A stretch of 61,509 nucleotides of DNA from Flavobacteriales bacterium (GCA_029245065.1 JAQWQB010000018.1:1-61509); one strand, 5' to 3'; positions 7,604-21,627 are shown, numbered from the stretch's first letter. Made by a program: numbers and translations. Notes: generated by a model from the sequence alone, not told the origin.

Positions 7604-7747
7604 AAAGGAGTGACGTGGTAATCACTCTGGAACCAAGGGCTGTCAATCGGCCTAATGGTCTTTCTTCGGAGAGGCAACGAGAAGTCGTTGACAGTTACAA
7701 CGTTCCCTTAGCTGTTTGAGAGAGACAGTTGAGGGAACTCTTGGTTT
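7604..7747 (+). ncRNA. Candidate structured RNA (nested inverted repeats), class unknown
   Basis: No protein gene fits, yet inverted repeats nest: hairpin GAGTGA 7608-7613 / TCACTC 7622-7627; outer helix AACCAAG 7631-7637 / CTTGGTT 7740-7746; inner helix CTGTCAA 7640-7646 / TTGACAG 7688-7694; a 7-bp hairpin 7658-7675 capped by a UUCG tetraloop (C7664, G7669 closing); and a 14-bp hairpin 7702-7715 / 7725-7738 with two G-U pairs. The UUCG loop and the G-U pairs of that hairpin favour the plus strand. On the minus strand the same DNA would be the 3' end of the ars transcript, where the 14-bp hairpin could stop transcription. I do not recognise an RNA family; it is not tmRNA, RNase P or SRP RNA by eye. 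Confidence 0.4.
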
Positions 7748-8780
7748 AAACGGTACGGTACTTTTTCCGCAACCAGAAGGCCACCCGAACTAGAAGAATA
7801 AGCGCTGGAACCTCTACCAACGGCCCAATAACTCCTACAAATGCTTGTCCCGAATTGATGCCAAAAACAGCAATGGCTACGGCAATAGCTAATTCGAAAT
7901 TATTTCCCGCAGCAGTGAACGCTACCGCAACTGTTTTGTCATAAGTGGCGCCCTTGGCCTTCGACATGAAGTACCCAATAAGGAACATCAGAATGAAGTA
8001 AATCAACAGCGGGATAGCAATCAGCAACACGTCAAATGGAATTTCAACAATCATTTGCCCTTTCAAAGAGAACATCACAATGATGGTAAACAGAAGCGCT
8101 ATGAGGGTAAGGGGCGAAATAAAAGGAATGAAGGTGTTGTTGTACCAGTCTTCGCCCTTCATTTTTACTAGCACCATTCGTGTCAAAACGCCTAATGCAA
8201 AAGGAATCCCCAAATAGATTAAAACGCTCTCGGCAATGGTAGAAATGGGAATGGCTATGGCCGCACCTTCAAGCCCAAAATAGGGCGGAAGCACGGTAAT
8301 GAACAACCAAGCGTAAAAGCTATAGGCAAACACTTGAAACACACTATTTAAAGCAACTAAACCTGCTCCGTACTCTTTGCTTCCCTCAGCTAAGTCGTTC
8401 CAAACCAACACCATAGCAATGCATCTGGCAAGACCAATGAGAATGAGTCCAACCATGTACTCAGGGTAGTCATGAAGAAAAATCAACGCAAGGGCAAACA
8501 TCAAAACAGGTCCAATTAACCAGTTCAATAGGAGTGAAACCGACAAGAGTTTGGTGTTCTTAAAAATGGAAGGGAGCAATTTGTAATTCACCTTCGCCAA
8601 GGGCGGAAAGAGCATGAGGATAAGCCCAATTGCGATTGGAACATTGGTTGTTCCATAGTTGAAGGAATCAATAAATGTGGGGGTGGACGGAATGAAATAC
8701 CCAATGGCAACACCAATTGCCATGGCTATAAAAATCCACAGCGTAAGGTAACGATCTACAAATCCTAGTCTCTTTTTCAT
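7746..8780 (-). CDS. acr3: Arsenite efflux transporter, ACR3 family
   Basis: A 344-residue polytopic membrane protein with about ten hydrophobic segments. Family landmarks are the conserved cysteine C120 in [16 protein letters not shown], the VALNSVFQ segment, and [15 protein letters not shown] followed by [13 protein letters not shown]3 carriers expel arsenite (and often antimonite) using the proton motive force. Last gene of the arsR-DUF6428-arsC-acr3 operon; its ATG overlaps the arsC stop (8777-8780, ATGA). Normal length for the family. The stop codon abuts the 3' arm of the structured region at 7604-7747. Confidence 0.93.
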
Positions 8781-9394
8781 CTCGAAATCTTTGTTGAGAG
8801 GTACGTAAACACAACGTTTAATTCAGCCCCAATAAGCAAGGCGGTTTTACGGTATTCTTCTGCGGCTTGAGGAGTGTCGTCAAAACGCTTTGGATCTTCA
8901 AATGGAAGGGCAATTCTAAGTATTGCTCCTGGGATAAACGGACAATTCTGTTCAGCATGTGAGCAAGTCATAACGGCTACTAAATCTTCTTGTGGGTTGA
9001 AGGAATTATCCCATGTTTTTGAAAACATCTTGTATCCTTCAGCACCTGAAGAGACGTGCAGACGCGTGAACTCTTGCGTTTCATCAACAAGAAAACCGAG
9101 CTCTTGCAACGCCACTTTAGATGAATGGAAAAAAGCAGTTGCTTCCGTTCCTCCTGAAGACGAGGTCATGTTCAGATCAAACTTTTCGATAAAGGCATGA
9201 CCCCATGCTTCAGCCAGTTGACTTCGCCGTGAATTGTGGGTGCATATAAAGTTCAGATGAGGTGTCTTTCCCGCATCCAACAAGGGTAGAATACCTTCAG
9301 AAAGTTGCTCAAGGGAGGCCAGGCGTTCCGCAGATATAGTCACTTCAGCAAAGCGCGCTATGGTGGCCTCCAAACCGGTTAAGAGTGCTTTCAT
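8777..9394 (-). CDS. arsC: Arsenate reductase, thioredoxin-coupled LMW-phosphatase type
   Basis: A 205-residue protein with the phosphatase P-loop C-x5-R as CTHNSRR (C51-R57) and the redox pair CSHAEQNC, the three cysteines used by thioredoxin-coupled arsenate reductases to turn arsenate into arsenite. There is a ~45-residue N-terminal extension absent from classical ~140-residue ArsC; such longer forms, often labelled protein-tyrosine phosphatase, are common in Bacteroidota. The start at 9394 is chosen because it lies one base past the upstream gene's stop; the earlier start would overlap it. Cytoplasmic, working with Acr3 encoded next. Confidence 0.9.
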
Positions 9395-9395
9395 T

Positions 9396-9875
9396 TTAGC
9401 AACAGCCACCACCTGGTGTACAGCAGCTATCGCCCGCTACTGTTTTTGCCAAGTCATTCAACGCCACTTTGGCCTTTTGAATTGGGATACCACAGTTCTC
9501 TTCTGCCAAACAAGCCGTTTGTGTCTTTGTAAGCTGGAAGTGGTCGCCATTGTGAGCCAAGTTGTATTTTCCAATGGTGTCTGATTGGTATTCAACTTCA
9601 ATTTCAAGGTCGCCAATGGAGAGCTTTTCTTCAGATAAGTTGACGATTGAAAGAAGCTTTTCGCTTTTCAACCGATGATGTAAATCTACAGAGTACCACA
9701 ATTGGAGATTGATTTTATGCTCTTCGCGAACCGTACCTCCACAATCGATGAAATGCTTGTTAATGACACCCACTTCAGTAATGTGGAAATGAGCTGGAAT
9801 GAACGAGCCGTTCGGCAGCTGAAACTTCAATTTTGAAGTCTGTTCTAACAACACCTTAAACGCAGATAATTTCAT
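9396..9875 (-). CDS. DUF6428 family protein of the arsenic operon
   Basis: A 159-residue soluble protein encoded between arsR and arsC. The sequence (LPNGSFIPAHFHITEVG near the start, then CGGTVREEHKINLQLW) matches the small family labelled DUF6428, found repeatedly in ars operons of Bacteroidota. The C-terminus is cysteine-dense: CLAEENCGIPIQKAK and a final DSCCTPGGGCC, a tail that could bind trivalent arsenic; that is inference. The function is not known; arsenite chaperone or sensor are guesses. One base separates its stop from arsC. An ArsR-like operator lies 12 nt upstream of its start. Confidence 0.8.
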   Translation of the reverse strand: MKLSAFKVLLEQTSKLKFQLPNGSFIPAHFHITEVGVINKHFIDCGGTVREEHKINLQLWYSVDLHHRLKSEKLLSIVNLSEEKLSIGDLEIEVEYQSDTIGKYNLAHNGDHFQLTKTQTACLAEENCGIPIQKAKVALNDLAKTVAGDSCCTPGGGCC

Positions 9876-9886
9876 GTGATTTTAAT

Positions 9887-9902
9887 ATTGCAATGTGACG
9901 AT
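9887..9902. promoter_or_regulatory. ArsR-like operator upstream of the DUF6428 gene
   Basis: ATTGCAATGTGACGAT, 14 of 16 bases identical to the operator before arsR (10273-10288), in the short gap between arsR and the next gene. It suggests an internal, separately repressed promoter. Imperfect palindrome. Confidence 0.5.
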
Positions 9903-9919
9903 GATTCGAATAAATTTTT

Positions 9920-10252
9920 TTAGCAGCATGAAGAAGGATTATCAGAAAACTGACTGAAAAGGTGTGAAAACAACGACTGAATTTCACTCCACCGTTGCGG
10001 GTTGATGCAATAACTCATTGATACACCCTCTATCGTGCCCTGGATGATGCCAATGGATTTCAGCTCTTTCAAATGCTGACTAATTGTGGCCTGAGCAAGA
10101 CCAATTTCATCAACTAAATGACTATTAATACAAGAGTCGGTCTTTAACAAGTGCTGAATAATTGCCACGCGTGCAGGGTGCGAAAAGCACTTCGCTACAG
10201 TGGCAAGTTCGTTCTGTTCAACAGAGTATAAAGACGTTTTTGTGATTCCCAT
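9920..10252 (-). CDS. arsR: ArsR-family transcriptional repressor
   Basis: A 110-residue winged-helix protein. The recognition region LVDEIGLAQATISQHLKELKSIGII (about 46-70, shown in part) is typical of ArsR/SmtB repressors. It lacks the classic ELCVCDL arsenic motif; instead it has C22, C41, C82 and a terminal C109-C110 pair, so the arsenite site must be of a different layout, possibly including the tail. First gene of the operon; an ArsR-like palindrome lies 21 nt upstream of the ATG and overlaps a TAATATTG element resembling a -7 box, as expected for autorepression. Confidence 0.9.
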   Translation of the reverse strand: MGITKTSLYSVEQNELATVAKCFSHPARVAIIQHLLKTDSCINSHLVDEIGLAQATISQHLKELKSIGIIQGTIEGVSMSYCINPQRWSEIQSLFSHLFSQFSDNPSSCC

Positions 10253-11564: not shown

Positions 11565-12293
11565 TCATCTCTTTCGAGTAAACGGCTTGGTAAGTCGGTA
11601 CCAAATACGCTTCGTCCGGCTTACTGGAGTAACATGGAAGGCGATGATATCTATGTCCTCGCTCGAAAAAGTAGTATCTACCACAATTTCATCTCTTCCC
11701 ACAGGTAACCCTACAATGCGTTTAGTAGTGTAGCCAATAGAAGAGAACTCCAATTCGTCGTTAGCTGTTGAGGTTGAATCATCTAGCGAAATGGTAACTT
11801 CATATTTTCCATCAAAGTCCGTTATAGCTCCTGTTTGTCTCGTTATCAAGTGAACGTTCACAAAAGGAATGGGTTCTCCTGTTTCTTCATCAGTTACTGT
11901 ACCTCTGATGGTACACAAACGAAGTGGTGAATCAGCAGGTTCTACGGGTTGCTCTACAATCAGCGTATCGGGACAGTGGGCCTCAATCAAAGGGGTTGGA
12001 CTGAAAGTAGCGAAAGAAGGAGTTACCGAGAGCAACAAGGAAGCAACCGCGGCGACGGCTTTCGGATTGAAGCCTAGGTGCGGCGCTTGGTGTCCCCAAT
12101 GATCTAATTGTTTTTGCGTGTACAAGCCGCACAAGGAATGGTTGTTCTCTGCCTGCAAAGACGAAATCTCCTTCCATGATTTCCCGGTAAAATCAATGAT
12201 TTTCTTTTCACAAGAGCTACAAACCCTTCCTCCGGGAACTTCATTCATTCGAAGCCAGTCTTGCTGGCAGTACTGTGGTTTAGGAGTATTCAT
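11565..12293 (-). CDS. Membrane protein with cysteine box and carboxypeptidase-regulatory-like domain
   Basis: A 242-residue protein in three parts: an N-terminal box with two cysteine pairs (C9; GGRVCSSCEKKIIDFTG; CGLYT) seen in many Bacteroidota proteins, a hydrophobic segment near residues 75-95, and a carboxypeptidase-D regulatory-like beta domain (RGTVTDEETGEPIPFVNVHL, GAITDFDGKYEVTI, SSIGYTTKRI). Such domains anchor or extend surface and TonB-linked proteins. The N-terminal box may bind metal or haem; unknown. No T9SS tail. Ends close to the start of the downstream Ere-like gene. Confidence 0.7.
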   Translation of the reverse strand: MNTPKPQYCQQDWLRMNEVPGGRVCSSCEKKIIDFTGKSWKEISSLQAENNHSLCGLYTQKQLDHWGHQAPHLGFNPKAVAAVASLLLSVTPSFATFSPTPLIEAHCPDTLIVEQPVEPADSPLRLCTIRGTVTDEETGEPIPFVNVHLITRQTGAITDFDGKYEVTISLDDSTSTANDELEFSSIGYTTKRIVGLPVGRDEIVVDTTFSSEDIDIIAFHVTPVSRTKRIWYRLTKPFTRKR

Positions 12294-16208: not shown

Positions 16209-19200
16209 TTAACGCAGAAGTGTAACTGTACCGTTGTAATCTCTTCCGTTTGGAAGAACCAATACGTACCAGTACGTTCCGTCAGCTTGGTCTTGACCTC
16301 TCCAGTCTCCTGACTGATAGTCAGCGCTTTCATAAATCAAGTTACCCCATCTGTTGAAGATGCTCAGTTGAACATCATTATACACGTCAAGTCCTTCAAT
16401 TGAGAAGGTAACGTTATCTGCATCACCGTTCGGGGTGAATACGTTCGGGATGGTAATCTCACATGGATCAATGATTACTTCGAATGAAGCAGATGCTGAA
16501 CCACATGGGTTAGTAGCCGTTCCGTTGAGTGAAAGTGTTTGTCCCCAACAATCTTGAGAAAGTTGAGATGACACTAAATTCAAGTCATCGTTTCCAGAAA
16601 GGAAAGTAGTCTCACCAGCGCAGTTCACAGACCACACCCATTCGAATGCTTCACCAGCGTTCAAAGAGAATGTGTTGGTGATTTCAGGGCAAAGTGTAAT
16701 GAGTTCCTGAGGTGAAGGGTTGGCAACTGGGTTAGTACCGAAGTATACTTGTCCTTCAAACGTTTCAGTGTTACAGTTTCCTGGATCAGTAATAGTAGCA
16801 GAGAAACCACCGTTATCAGCTGGTGTGAAGACGTTTGAAATACCTTCCGTACCATCACTCCATATAACAGTCCAATCATCATTTGTTCCGTTTGCGAAAA
16901 TGGTCGCTTCGTCTTGGCCATCACAATAGATATTGATCAGCGGGAATGGATCGATGTCTCCAGCGATTGAAACCTCAGCACACGTTTCTACTCCGCCAGG
17001 GAAACATTCGTTGCTCACCGTTACGCAGTAGGTACCTGTTGTTGCTGCGTCCACTTCAGGGTCGTTTGATAAGAAATCACCGTTAATTGTCCACTCGTAA
17101 TCAATTCCACCAGCATTGTCAGCAATCGGATCCAAAGGAACAACACCACCATCACAAAGAATGGCATCTTCTAGTGCAATAACTTCTGGTTCGAATTGAG
17201 CCAAAATAGTGAAGCCAGCGTCATCAGAACCACACTCGTTGGTAATGGTTACCGTCAAGTTGAGGTCTTGCGGAGTATTGTAGCTATATGTGTTTTCAAG
17301 CACATCGTCAACTCCCGGACTTGGCCAATCAATTGTGGCGGTTCCACCAATGTCGGTAATCGTTGCTTCAACAAAAGCAGCCTCATCACCACAGAGGATG
17401 AATTCATCAGTAGTCAATGTAATAGAAGGTGCACTTGTGAACACGACTTCGTATTCGAACGTCTGACCACATGCATCTTCCGTAAACTGAAGCGTGTAAG
17501 CTCCATATTCACACGGTGTAAACTCGGTGTCGAACTGTGTGATGTCAGAGAATGCACCAGGACAATCAGGACCGTCAATAATAGACCATGTTCCGAAAGC
17601 TGGCTCAGAAGCACAACCAGCAGGCTCACTCCAAAGGGTTCCGTCAGTCAGGTTATTCAAGATGAAGTTGTTTTGATTTGAACAGTTGAACCCTTGAATG
17701 GTATTGTTCTCGTCTCCGTCTCCAGAAGAAACGTACACGATTTCAATATCGTCATCCGCTTCAATGTCAATTGTTTCAATTTGAACAAGACCACCTGAAG
17801 TGAAGATGCCAACAGATACACCGTTCACAAAGACTTCAATGAAAGCACCGTTCCAACCAGCGTCATCAGAAGATAACAAGTAAAGAGTCAATGCTCCTTC
17901 AGCTGGGTTAGAGAATCCACCTTCAAACGTAATAGGGTCGAGGTTGTCACAGTAAACACCAGACTGCTCATCTTCAGGGATGAATGGGCTAATATTGTCA
18001 ATGACGAATACACGTTGAGCGAAACAACCTGTTGCCATTTCTGCAAGAATTCGGTACACACCTGGTCCCATTGTGGCACAGTCACCATCTCCTTGAATAT
18101 CATCTATAGTTCCACCGAGGTCGTTCCAGTTTTCGTCCCATTGGTAACCAACGTATTCTAATTCTTCAATTTGGTCTGGATCAACACAAACTGTAGCTAA
18201 TTCATCGTAGCAAACCGGGTTCGGTTCAATGTTAATGTCTACCAACTCGAATGGCGTCACATCCAATTCGAATTGAATTTCCGCTTCGCATCCTTGGAAG
18301 CCAGCTGTTAATGTGAGCAACCCAGCAGTGTTGACGTCACATTCCTGTGTATCGCACCCTGTTGACCAAGTGTACGTATCAAAGCCATCAGAAGCGACCA
18401 ACGAAGTAGATTGGCCAGCGCAGATTCCCAAGTCTCCAGAAATGGTTAATTCGGGAAGCTCAACATTGATGACGTCAAAAACGTAATTGATTTCGGTAAC
18501 GCCTTCTGGCTCACCAGTATCTGTTGCTGTGAAAGTAATGGTGTTAATTCCTAGGTAATCAGTTGAACCAACGAACCCACCTTCAAAAATAGCTACCGCA
18601 CCGTTTTGTTGGTTGTCTATGAACAAGCCGTCAAGGTCTCCAGAAACTTCAATAGAAACGTTCTGGTTGGTTTCTGGTGGAAGGAAAGAAATGTCAATTG
18701 GCACCGTATCGTTCAAACAAACGGTAATGGTATCACACGCCAACGCCGAAGTTGAAATCGGAGGGGTGTTGTTTTGACCAGAAGTAGCCGTGTTGAAGTT
18801 GAATACTTTATCTGTTAGCCAGAAAACACCATCTTGTTCCTGAGGAGTATCTCCGTAGGGTCCGTTGTAGTTTGCGTTCAATAGGTTGAATCGCCCGTAT
18901 TGGATATTTGAACCTGTTGTAGAACTTTTATCAGCTCCAACATTCCCAGGGTTAGGCCCTAGAGTACCACCAGAACCACCTACATCACCGTGTGCCCACT
19001 GCATAGATTGGTAGCAAAGCTGTACGTTGTTTCCATCAGGAAGAAGCTCTCCGTCTTCAGGTGTGAATAGGATTTGGAAGGTATTTGTCTTGTCGGCATG
19101 ACTGTTGAAATAACCTACTTCGATGAAGTTTACATAAACACCTTCGGGCGTTACTTTGTACCAAATCTCTCCTGATTCTCTGATATCAATATCAGCCCAG

Positions 19201-19769
19201 TATCCTGCAATTTGGTCGTAGGTAGCTCCTGGGAATTCTTCAGGTGTCCAGTCAATGTAACCAGCACCGAACGAAACAGTTCCTTTCGAGTTGATGTAAA
19301 ATGAGTTGAAAAGCTCACCGTAGTGGTTGTGAGACCATCCGTTCAATCCAATTGGTCCAAGCCATGCATCAACATCGGCACCAGCACCTCCGGTTTCATC
19401 CCAATCCGTAGTATTAATCTGTGTGTAAGTTTCGTCTGGCTCAACCCAGCAATCGCAATCACCAGCAGCTAATTGACGTGCATACACACCATTTTGTCTT
19501 CTTTCAGCACGAATTTCTGAAGTTGCAGCTTTGTGTTCTGCCACAATTCTGCGTGCTTCTCCTTCGTCATATTGATCCCAAGCGCGCATCACTTCCCATT
19601 CAGCTCGTGACATATTTCGCACTGCTCCTTCAAAAGAGTTGTACTTATCAATGATTTGTTCTGCGGTAAGTGAAGAGGTGGTAACATCCTCATTAAGAGA
19701 AACTTGTCCATTTGTGCTCATCGCCAAACAACAGAAAGCGAAGAGTAAAAAGAGGGTATTTTTCATCAT
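16209..19769 (-). CDS. Large secreted protein with nidogen-like domain and type B T9SS sorting domain
   Basis: A 1186-residue protein with a signal peptide (about 1-22, ending STNG|QVS), a nidogen-like (NIDO) domain roughly 110-310 (FNSFYINSKGTVSFGAGYIDW, QIAGYWADIDIRESGEIWY, FQILFTPED), several Ig/cadherin-like beta repeats with regular cysteines, and a C-terminal CHU_C domain (IPNVFTPNGDADN..., IFNRWGNLIYES, DGTYWYVL). It should be exported by T9SS and attached at the cell surface; adhesion is plausible but unproven. Lies 91 bases downstream of the membrane CTD protein and ECF sigma genes on the same strand, and is followed by a strong terminator, so the three may share a transcript. Confidence 0.88.
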   Translation of the reverse strand: MMKNTLFLLFAFCCLAMSTNGQVSLNEDVTTSSLTAEQIIDKYNSFEGAVRNMSRAEWEVMRAWDQYDEGEARRIVAEHKAATSEIRAERRQNGVYARQLAAGDCDCWVEPDETYTQINTTDWDETGGAGADVDAWLGPIGLNGWSHNHYGELFNSFYINSKGTVSFGAGYIDWTPEEFPGATYDQIAGYWADIDIRESGEIWYKVTPEGVYVNFIEVGYFNSHADKTNTFQILFTPEDGELLPDGNNVQLCYQSMQWAHGDVGGSGGTLGPNPGNVGADKSSTTGSNIQYGRFNLLNANYNGPYGDTPQEQDGVFWLTDKVFNFNTATSGQNNTPPISTSALACDTITVCLNDTVPIDISFLPPETNQNVSIEVSGDLDGLFIDNQQNGAVAIFEGGFVGSTDYLGINTITFTATDTGEPEGVTEINYVFDVINVELPELTISGDLGICAGQSTSLVASDGFDTYTWSTGCDTQECDVNTAGLLTLTAGFQGCEAEIQFELDVTPFELVDINIEPNPVCYDELATVCVDPDQIEELEYVGYQWDENWNDLGGTIDDIQGDGDCATMGPGVYRILAEMATGCFAQRVFVIDNISPFIPEDEQSGVYCDNLDPITFEGGFSNPAEGALTLYLLSSDDAGWNGAFIEVFVNGVSVGIFTSGGLVQIETIDIEADDDIEIVYVSSGDGDENNTIQGFNCSNQNNFILNNLTDGTLWSEPAGCASEPAFGTWSIIDGPDCPGAFSDITQFDTEFTPCEYGAYTLQFTEDACGQTFEYEVVFTSAPSITLTTDEFILCGDEAAFVEATITDIGGTATIDWPSPGVDDVLENTYSYNTPQDLNLTVTITNECGSDDAGFTILAQFEPEVIALEDAILCDGGVVPLDPIADNAGGIDYEWTINGDFLSNDPEVDAATTGTYCVTVSNECFPGGVETCAEVSIAGDIDPFPLINIYCDGQDEATIFANGTNDDWTVIWSDGTEGISNVFTPADNGGFSATITDPGNCNTETFEGQVYFGTNPVANPSPQELITLCPEITNTFSLNAGEAFEWVWSVNCAGETTFLSGNDDLNLVSSQLSQDCWGQTLSLNGTATNPCGSASASFEVIIDPCEITIPNVFTPNGDADNVTFSIEGLDVYNDVQLSIFNRWGNLIYESADYQSGDWRGQDQADGTYWYVLVLPNGRDYNGTVTLLR

Positions 19770-19808
19770 GCCGATTATTATTTCAGGTCTCTATTTCAAT
19801 AGTATAAT

Positions 19809-19852
19809 CACGAATTTTCCTGATTCGTGTGTTTTCAAGGCTAGCAAATATA
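19809..19852 (-). promoter_or_regulatory. Possible internal promoter and leader hairpin before the large T9SS gene
   Basis: On the minus strand TATATTTG (19852-19845) matches the -7 element TAnnTTTG exactly, but no good -33 TTTG lies upstream. A 7-bp hairpin CACGAAT / ATTCGTG (19809-19829) follows. It could give separate control of the substrate gene. Confidence 0.35.
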
Positions 19853-19860
19853 AGGTTTAC

Positions 19861-20955
19861 TTAATTACGCTGTAAGAATACCTTTCGTTGCTTGTTAATG
19901 TTTTCACCAAATTGAGTCTTCCCAGACACTTTTAAGATGTAATCACCTCGTTGGGCGGGTTCTCCACCAAATACATTTCCATCCCATCCAATGCCGTCTC
20001 CAACTTGTTCAAAAAGCAATTTTCCGTCCAACGAATAGACTTGCATGCTTAAAATTGTAACGTTCTGCGAACGCTCAGCGGGGTTCAAGAAATCATTGTA
20101 CCCATCTCCGTTTGGTGTGAAGGTGTTGGGCAAAATGAGTAAAGCCGGTTTTCGAACTGTCAAGGTTAATTCATCCAATTTCGAAAAGCCTTTTTCGTCC
20201 GTCACATTTAACATGATGTCGTAAACACCTTCTTCTTCGAATTGATGTACCGGGCTCATTTCATAACTCGTTGTGCCATCTCCAAAAATCCAGAAGTAGG
20301 CAGCTCCTTGCTTGAAATCAGGTGTAAATGTTATGATGAAGTCTTCAAAAGGGTCTTCTGCTGTGGTAAATGAACCCGTTAAATCTGGATTGATAACAGG
20401 AGTGGCCGCTTCTTCTTCTTCCAGGGAGACCTCAACAGAGTCTTCTTGAACGGGCTCCTCGAGCACTTCAGCGCCGTTTTGTACAGCAATTTCAGCTAAT
20501 CCGTTGAGTGGAAGATCAGTTTGAACAGCAGTTGCTTCCCACTCAATGGTATCAGCAATTGGGTCTTCATTGATTTCCGTTTTTACGCGAGATGTTGTTG
20601 TAGTTGTAGCGCTTGTTCCTTCAGAGGAAACAGGTGTCTGCTCATCCAACGGACTAGGCGTTTGAGGCGCCGTTTCTGGAGAAATCTTTTCTGGTTGCAC
20701 CACCACCGTTTGTTCTTGAGGAGGTGTGTTGCCTTTGATGAATACTACAACGGCTGTTGAGATTCCAATTACTGCAGTAGCAATGGCTGCCCAACCCACG
20801 GCCCCTAGTTTGAAACCAGACGCAGCGGCAACAGACCCAGCCCCGGCAGCGGGCAAAGCACTTTGAATCCCTTGCCAAATGGCAGGGTCCACCGGTGCGC
20901 TCGCCTGGTGCATTTTCTCACTGAGGAGGTCTTGTATGCGTTTATCTTCGTTCAT
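19861..20955 (-). CDS. Single-pass membrane protein with PKD and CHU_C-type T9SS domain, in anti-sigma position
   Basis: A 364-residue protein encoded directly after the ECF sigma factor, overlapping it by 14 bases. Residues 1-48 are cytoplasmic-type (MNEDKRIQDLLSEKMHQ...DPAIWQGIQ, a layout like anti-sigma factors), 51-73 are one transmembrane helix, ~75-185 a Pro/Thr/Glu-rich periplasmic linker, ~190-265 a PKD domain (FWIFGDGTTS, VHQFEEEGVYDI), and ~270-364 a gliding-motility-associated CHU_C domain (PNTFTPNGDGYNDFLNP). There is no cleavable signal peptide, so the T9SS-type tail would be held in the periplasm. A role as anti-sigma sensor of T9SS status is inference; gene order is what supports it. 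Confidence 0.8.
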   Translation of the reverse strand: MNEDKRIQDLLSEKMHQASAPVDPAIWQGIQSALPAAGAGSVAAASGFKLGAVGWAAIATAVIGISTAVVVFIKGNTPPQEQTVVVQPEKISPETAPQTPSPLDEQTPVSSEGTSATTTTTSRVKTEINEDPIADTIEWEATAVQTDLPLNGLAEIAVQNGAEVLEEPVQEDSVEVSLEEEEAATPVINPDLTGSFTTAEDPFEDFIITFTPDFKQGAAYFWIFGDGTTSYEMSPVHQFEEEGVYDIMLNVTDEKGFSKLDELTLTVRKPALLILPNTFTPNGDGYNDFLNPAERSQNVTILSMQVYSLDGKLLFEQVGDGIGWDGNVFGGEPAQRGDYILKVSGKTQFGENINKQRKVFLQRN

Positions 20956-21487
20956 CACGTTGTTCGATCGCTTCGAGCTCATTTCTTAATTGAATCTTTG
21001 CTTTGTGGAACTGGGTTTTAGAGGTGCTTTCGGAAATACCGAGTTGTTGAGCAATCTCTTTGTGGCTGTAGCCTTCAATGGCAAACAGGTTGAATACCGT
21101 TCGGTAACCTGTAGGTAGCTGTTGAATCAATTGCATGATATCTTCAGCGGCCAGTTTGGCGAAAACATCAAATGTTGAGGCAGTAGCCATGACATCGTCG
21201 TTTATTTCCTCGTTGAAGCTGTGTTTTTTCTCCTTCCTTAAATGAAGTAAGGCAGAGTTAACCACTACTCTTCGAATCCATCCGCCAAGAGCGCCATCAC
21301 CCTTGTATTGTTCCAGTTTTTCAAAGACCCTAATAAATCCGTCTTGCATCATATCTGCCGCATCAGCGCCATTACCAGCATACCGAAGGCACACGGCCAT
21401 CATTTGTCCAGAAAACTGATCGTACAATTCACGCTGAGCCTTTCGGTCATTTCCAATGCACGCTTTGATCAGTTCTTCTTCAGACAT
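20942..21487 (-). CDS. ECF-type RNA polymerase sigma factor
   Basis: A 181-residue sigma-70 family protein of the ECF type, with region 2 (LYDQFSGQMMAVCLRYAGNGADAADMMQDGFIRVFEKL) and region 4 (LPTGYRTVFNLFAIEGYSHKEIAQQLGISESTSKTQ) and no regions 1 or 3. It would direct polymerase to a small regulon, normally held off by a membrane anti-sigma encoded next to it; here that next gene is the CHU_C-tailed membrane protein. Divergent from lepA. Targets cannot be read off directly. Confidence 0.93.
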   Translation of the reverse strand: MSEEELIKACIGNDRKAQRELYDQFSGQMMAVCLRYAGNGADAADMMQDGFIRVFEKLEQYKGDGALGGWIRRVVVNSALLHLRKEKKHSFNEEINDDVMATASTFDVFAKLAAEDIMQLIQQLPTGYRTVFNLFAIEGYSHKEIAQQLGISESTSKTQFHKAKIQLRNELEAIEQRDERR

Positions 21488-21627
21488 AGGATTTGTGAGT
21501 ATATGATACCTCGTGGGATTTAAAAGTTGCCTGCTTTTTTAATTCTGCAGAAAAAAGTTGTCCAAAGATGGAGAACATTCAAGGTTTGTCGCAAATTATT
21601 CACGGGTTAACGCTATTTTTGCTCCTT

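Follow-up and report, generated by a model that had tools for sequence, protein, structure and literature searches.

A Flavobacteriales ECF sigma factor paired with a probable anti-sigma factor whose tail resembles a T9SS type B sorting domain

The genome of a Flavobacteriales bacterium carries a gene for an extracytoplasmic function (ECF) sigma factor that overlaps a gene for a membrane protein ending in a domain similar to the type B sorting domains of the type IX secretion system (T9SS). We analyzed this gene pair and its downstream neighbor within a window of 61,509 nt (GCA_029245065.1 JAQWQB010000018.1:1-61509), in which they occupy positions 16,209-21,487. A preliminary description of the sequence had placed three genes here on the minus strand, and all of them were located again as follows.

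20942..21487, minus strand: ECF sigma factor, 181 aa (Pfam Sigma70_r2 and Sigma70_r4_2)
19861..20955, minus strand: putative anti-sigma factor, membrane-anchored, 364 aa
16209..19769, minus strand: T9SS type B substrate, 1186 aa, with a NIDO domain and a CHU_C tail containing NRWG

The sigma factor scored over the cut-off of TIGR02937 and under that of the FecI-like model TIGR02985 (95.4 vs 126.4 bits). When the membrane protein starts at the ATG at 20955, a start shared with its orthologues, the two genes overlap by 14 bases as had been described; an alternative in-frame ATG upstream at 20982 would give a 41-base overlap. The membrane protein is composed of the following parts.

Residues about 1-45: N-terminal domain, a putative sigma-binding domain encoded by codons 1-45 at 20821..20955, minus strand, with a conserved Trp27 (profile test against 1560 shuffles; AlphaFold2)
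Residues 56-73: transmembrane (TM) segment
Residues about 74-203: disordered tether
Residues 206-267: PKD domain
Residues 274-364: CHU_C/TIGR04131-like tail encoded by codons 274-364 at 19864..20136, minus strand, with the Arg-Trp of NRWG replaced (SLDG, residues 308-311)

Pfam assigned PKD_4 to residues 206-267 (44.8 bits) and CHU_C to residues 274-344 (36.2 bits, cut-off 27), and the tail weakly passed the NCBIfam model TIGR04131 (38.6 bits vs a cut-off of 35). Only one TM segment was found, at about residues 56-73, preceded by about 55 mostly polar residues. As this segment is also the first hydrophobic one, the protein has no cleavable Sec signal peptide as judged from its sequence. An AlphaFold2 model built on an 18-row alignment contained helices at residues 3-17 and 24-33, the TM helix at 56-73, disorder across residues 35-203, and a confidently predicted two-domain beta tail (predicted local distance difference test score, pLDDT, around 90). 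Both PKD and CHU_C adopt Ig-like beta-sandwich folds, and sequence and fold searches of the PDB returned nothing beyond Ig-like folds and a grappling-hook protein tail. Among homologues in which PKD could be placed, the median tether was 126 residues long. The earlier view of a single-pass protein with PKD and CHU_C domains and no cleavable signal peptide was therefore confirmed by the Pfam matches and the TM position, while its assignment of a CHU_C sorting-type tail stood in that the curated cut-offs were exceeded but needs qualification, because the tail is divergent and lacks the Arg-Trp of NRWG.

Pairing of the two genes was conserved. A search of 60 relatives yielded full-length homologues of the membrane protein from a wide range of genera, and in all 27 full-length cases, picked blind to their neighbors, an ECF sigma gene directly preceded the homologue with a gap of -43 to +4 nt, usually an overlap. 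A wider set obtained via a sigma profile contained 77 loci encoding the CHU_C-tailed version in 14 family-level groups, a count of unnamed groups only. Conserved co-occurrence across Bacteroidota, proposed in the preliminary description as a check, was thus found for the pair, though not for the trio that includes the substrate gene.

Three kinds of sigma partner were distinguished, namely CHU_C-tailed, outer-membrane beta-barrel, and short proteins, and the home genome holds barrel-type and short partners as well. Several barrel-type partners exceeded the OMP_b-brl cut-off and the others were called by their length and C-terminal aromatic residue; the one short-type partner scanned had no recognized domain. 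Barrel-type partners show the arrangement of parts reported for Dma anti-sigma factors (PMC13088901). With a 45-residue profile of the N-terminal domain of the CHU type, 13 of the 19 barrel-type and 46 of the 56 short-type partners scored higher than any of 1560 shuffled decoys. Head types clustered strongly on the sigma tree, with 4 changes for the CHU type vs 49 in shuffles. Independent origins of the CHU_C head were considered and not adopted: the tree suggests about 4 changes, but a single clade was not rejected (approximately unbiased test, p-AU 0.34).

The home genome contains a second sigma/CHU_C-tailed pair (G000 C97:3566-4093; L223, L295), whose 434-aa partner has a tail without Arg-Trp and which is preceded by an ECF-like CAACC...CGTC site. 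In some homologues the N-terminal domain is repeated in tandem ahead of the TM segment, three times in Flavobacteriales loci L061 (5098-6285), L148, and L064 and twice in L059, L060, L062, and L140-L143; such repeats may titrate more than one sigma molecule.

A candidate promoter lies directly upstream of the sigma gene.

21505..21529, minus strand: ECF-type promoter CAACTTTT-N12-GTATC, with its 3' end 17 nt ahead of the sigma ATG

The corresponding motif, CAAC-N16-NN[AG]TC, preceded 65 of the 76 CHU-type sigma genes vs 1.8% in shuffles and usually lay 14-20 nt ahead of the sigma start. Because this fixed-spacing motif has the form of an ECF promoter and lies upstream of the sigma gene itself, it suggests that the sigma operon is autoregulated. 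The invariant adjacency and overlap, the N-terminal domain shared with other sigma partners, and the autoregulatory ECF-type promoter together make it very probable that the membrane protein is the anti-sigma factor of this sigma factor, in agreement with the position and role proposed for it earlier.

We also looked for the motif beyond the sigma operon. In two near relatives the strict motif occurred once per genome, at the sigma gene, and matches elsewhere were mostly within genes. The strict motif led to no T9SS gene in the home genome or its relatives, a search that looser promoters would escape. The proposal that the sigma factor tunes a set of surface proteins was therefore not supported, as the strict motif recurs only at the sigma gene. 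A regulon drawn from a loose motif in the home genome was also discarded, since its 33 matches vs 29 in the control showed no enrichment. One intergenic match in the home genome lies ahead of a gene for a 119-residue secreted protein (L184) and is a lead only. Another (G000 C127:18142-18166), likewise only a lead, lies 25 nt before a possible regulon member (L210), which encodes a secreted protein with Kazal repeats and a type A-like T9SS tail.

We then compared the anti-sigma tails with other type B tails. In a common-profile alignment across genomes, the Arg-Trp of NRWG was present in 46 of 49 other type B tails and in 0 of 76 anti-sigma tails (Fisher p about 5e-31, a value that ignores relatedness), and the anti-sigma tails retained FTPNGDGxND, WDG, and GxY. 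One of the three exceptions among the other tails, L018, starts with a sequence resembling the anti-sigma domain. Within the home genome, Arg-Trp was found in 37 of 39 other CHU_C proteins and Lys-Trp in one more, while both anti-sigma tails lacked it; in this count L276 was read by eye. The site forms a turn between strands 299-307 and 313-318 in the AlphaFold2 model. In the type B domain of SprB, mutation of any of five conserved motifs blocked secretion (PMC12618676). From the absence of Arg-Trp in all 76 tails and the behavior of the SprB mutants, we infer that the anti-sigma tail is probably export-incompetent.

Several known systems resemble the pair in part. Dma anti-sigma factors (PMC13088901) share with the protein studied here an adjacent sigma gene, an N-terminal domain, a single TM segment, a long disordered tether, and a separate extracytoplasmic end. 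Its N-terminal domain shows homology to the barrel-type partners of this sigma subfamily that the profile test covered. The end differs, being a PKD domain and a domain like the type B C-terminal domain (CTD) instead of a C-terminal outer-membrane beta-barrel. Dma proteins bind and inhibit cognate sigma factors of group ECF21; the sigma factor here is assigned as ECF and non-FecI-like. Given the short N-terminal domain that it shares with barrel-ended sigma partners, the best reading of the membrane protein is a Dma-like anti-sigma factor that carries a different head. Type B substrates such as SprB resemble it in the tail, which exceeds the CHU_C and TIGR04131 cut-offs and keeps most signature residues, but they differ from this protein with its inner-membrane TM segment, cytoplasmic N-terminal domain, absence of a cleavable signal peptide, and loss of Arg-Trp. 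In Porphyromonas gingivalis, PorXY-SigP with PorA likewise ties an ECF sigma factor to a CTD protein, with the response regulator PorX as the activator of SigP (PMC4800418). In contrast, the sigma factor here is co-encoded with a membrane protein bearing its own CTD-like tail, and no T9SS regulon was found. The layout is distinct from PorXY/SigP, as had been stated. The FecI/FecR systems of Bacteroidota (TIGR02985) also combine an ECF sigma factor with a membrane-bound regulator, but the sigma factor here falls short of their 126.4-bit cut-off and its partner has no FecR domain in Pfam. The SM6 pair of Flavobacterium psychrophilum (THC0290_1774/1773) is a flavobacterial ECF sigma/anti-sigma pair with its own ECF-type motif upstream, and that motif is also found at the GldN and PorU genes; it has a CGT box at -10, whereas the motif here mostly has NATC (PMC9723704). 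The literature searched yielded no anti-sigma factor that bears a type B CTD.

On the computational evidence, which comprises the arrangement of the genes, their domains, the N-terminal domain in common with other sigma partners, the promoter motifs, and the loss of Arg-Trp, we consider it likely that the locus encodes an autoregulated ECF sigma/anti-sigma pair in which a former T9SS sorting domain serves as the head of a tethered sensor. The tail is a descendant of a T9SS type B sorting domain and most likely a non-exported sensor head. By homology and gene order, the two-helix N-terminal domain would hold the sigma factor at the inner membrane, and the single TM segment and the disordered tether of about 130 residues would place the folded PKD and CHU_C-like tail in the periplasm. 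There, the non-exported tail would act as the sensor head. When a partner bound to the tail or was lost from it, the sigma factor would be released, probably because the anti-sigma factor is cleaved, and would then raise expression of its own operon.

Some points weigh against this explanation. The N-terminal domain is short and was modeled with only moderate confidence (pLDDT 65-67). Part of the comparison type B tails had been gathered with NRWG-containing profiles; a reverse search with an anti-sigma-tail profile gave the same Arg-Trp outcome, and the set of 49 is free of selection for NRWG because it was found with that profile. That NRWG is among the five SprB motifs is our inference, the motif letters being absent from the text of PMC12618676. 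Moreover, because the rest of the type B signature is strongly conserved, some interaction with T9SS, or even export, could have been kept.

What the tail senses is a separate matter. Refining the idea of the preliminary description, the tail might gauge T9SS by docking as a non-exportable pseudo-substrate on the translocon, a PorP/SprF-like shuttle, or GldM, where competition from real substrates or a stalled machine would shift its occupancy and free the sigma factor. Retention of the other type B signature residues and conservation of the head over the 14 family-level groups speak for this, as do the binding of type B domains by PorP-like proteins (PMC9143113) and the action of the P. gingivalis CTD protein PorA upstream of PorXY-SigP (PMC7712824). 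On the other hand, the loss of Arg-Trp has perhaps abolished recognition wholly, and the strict promoter motif precedes no T9SS gene. Co-occurrence of the tail with T9SS was dropped as a test of the link, because T9SS is nearly universal in the class sample (SprA in 191 of 198 genomes) and the variation is too small to give the association much power. Four high-quality and seemingly reliable genomes lacking SprA had only barrel-type or other non-CHU partners, which fits a link to T9SS with that little power. Another SprA-lacking genome, G117, has a CHU tail, and its SprA is likely absent through an assembly gap because congeners carry SprA; a further one, G239, is 56% complete. Because the Arg-Trp loss that points to non-export fits a tethered pseudo-substrate and a periplasmic sensor without any T9SS role equally well, we regard docking on T9SS as possible but tentative, and the more specific notion that an export-incompetent, tethered copy of a sorting signal relays T9SS occupancy or health directly to the ECF sigma factor as slightly more doubtful still.

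Alternatively, the tail could pass through T9SS and be retained at the surface by a PorP/SprF-like protein, with the N-terminus remaining in the inner membrane. The anti-sigma factor would then span both membranes, and a secreted domain would substitute for the Dma barrel as the outer-membrane anchor. The order of parts in Dma (PMC13088901) is the same up to an outer-membrane-associated end, and an extended tether of the median length could bridge the periplasm. However, the absence of Arg-Trp from every anti-sigma tail, read with the secretion block in all five SprB motif mutants, and gene maps with no porP/sprF-like gene directly after the anti-sigma gene make this arrangement unlikely.

The third gene bears on whether the locus is a single unit. 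Its product, described earlier as a T9SS substrate of 1186 residues, was verified as such by CHU_C (65.7 bits) and NIDO matches in Pfam and by TIGR04131 over the cut-off in NCBIfam, and its N-terminus is a hydrophobic signal sequence as judged by eye. A promoter-like element of another type precedes the gene.

19845..19852, minus strand: TATATTTG, a match to TAnnTTTG located past the anti-sigma stop and ahead of the substrate gene

TAnnTTTG is the -7 box of Bacteroidota sigma-A (PMC9723704). It was found past the anti-sigma stop in 17 of the 18 home-family loci that carry the substrate gene and in none of 9 loci that lack this gene, and no ECF-type motif was found ahead of the substrate gene in the window. 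Having its own promoter-like box, the substrate gene need not depend on the ECF sigma factor. A short inverted repeat, CACGAAT-N7-ATTCGTG, was seen by eye at 19800-19835 of the window, where it follows the TAnnTTTG box and precedes the start of the substrate gene.

The trio had been presented as one module, which would imply that the ECF sigma factor mainly drives the downstream type B substrate. Indeed, 21 of the 23 loci scored in the home family keep the order of sigma factor, anti-sigma factor, and NIDO substrate. Nevertheless, the substrate gene is absent behind the pair in two genomes of the same family and in every scored locus of four other families (f2, f3, f4, and f10), and in some metagenome-assembled genomes of other Flavobacteriales (L059-L062, L064, L069) the pair is followed by genes for large secreted proteins, either related ones or others. 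With the substrate gene a neighbor mainly in one family and preceded by the sigma-A-type box, control of the trio as a single regulatory module is improbable; judged from gene order, the core unit is the pair with a lineage-specific neighbor. Read-through transcription could give the ECF sigma factor partial control of the substrate gene. Finally, that the membrane protein is a regular T9SS substrate or adhesin whose start is atypical, lying beside the sigma gene by chance, would agree with its database name as a T9SS type B sorting domain protein but is very hard to reconcile with the 27 of 27 adjacencies, the N-terminal domain common to other sigma partners, and the lack of both a cleavable signal peptide and Arg-Trp.

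Elsewhere in the window, positions 11565-12293 encode a protein with a Cys-rich (CxxC) N-terminus, a hydrophobic segment, and a CarbopepD_reg domain, another cytoplasmic-looking N-terminus joined to an envelope domain. Positions 7746-10252 contain an arsenic-resistance-like cluster of an ArsR-like regulator, a reductase-like protein, and a transporter, as read from the sequence alone.

New in this analysis are the loss of Arg-Trp from the anti-sigma tails and the separate promoter elements, ECF-type for the sigma gene vs sigma-A-type for the substrate gene. Because databases label them "T9SS type B sorting domain-containing", probable anti-sigma factors of a widespread class are being counted as secreted surface proteins. 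A simple rule to tell the two apart can be drawn from the order of the genes, the N-terminal domain, and the lack of Arg-Trp. The class would belong to an anti-sigma family with varying periplasmic ends: barrel, CHU_C, or short. If the tail reads the state of T9SS, it would provide a direct feedback route by which the secretion machine acts on transcription; otherwise, it would still represent an export signal converted to a fixed sensor head.

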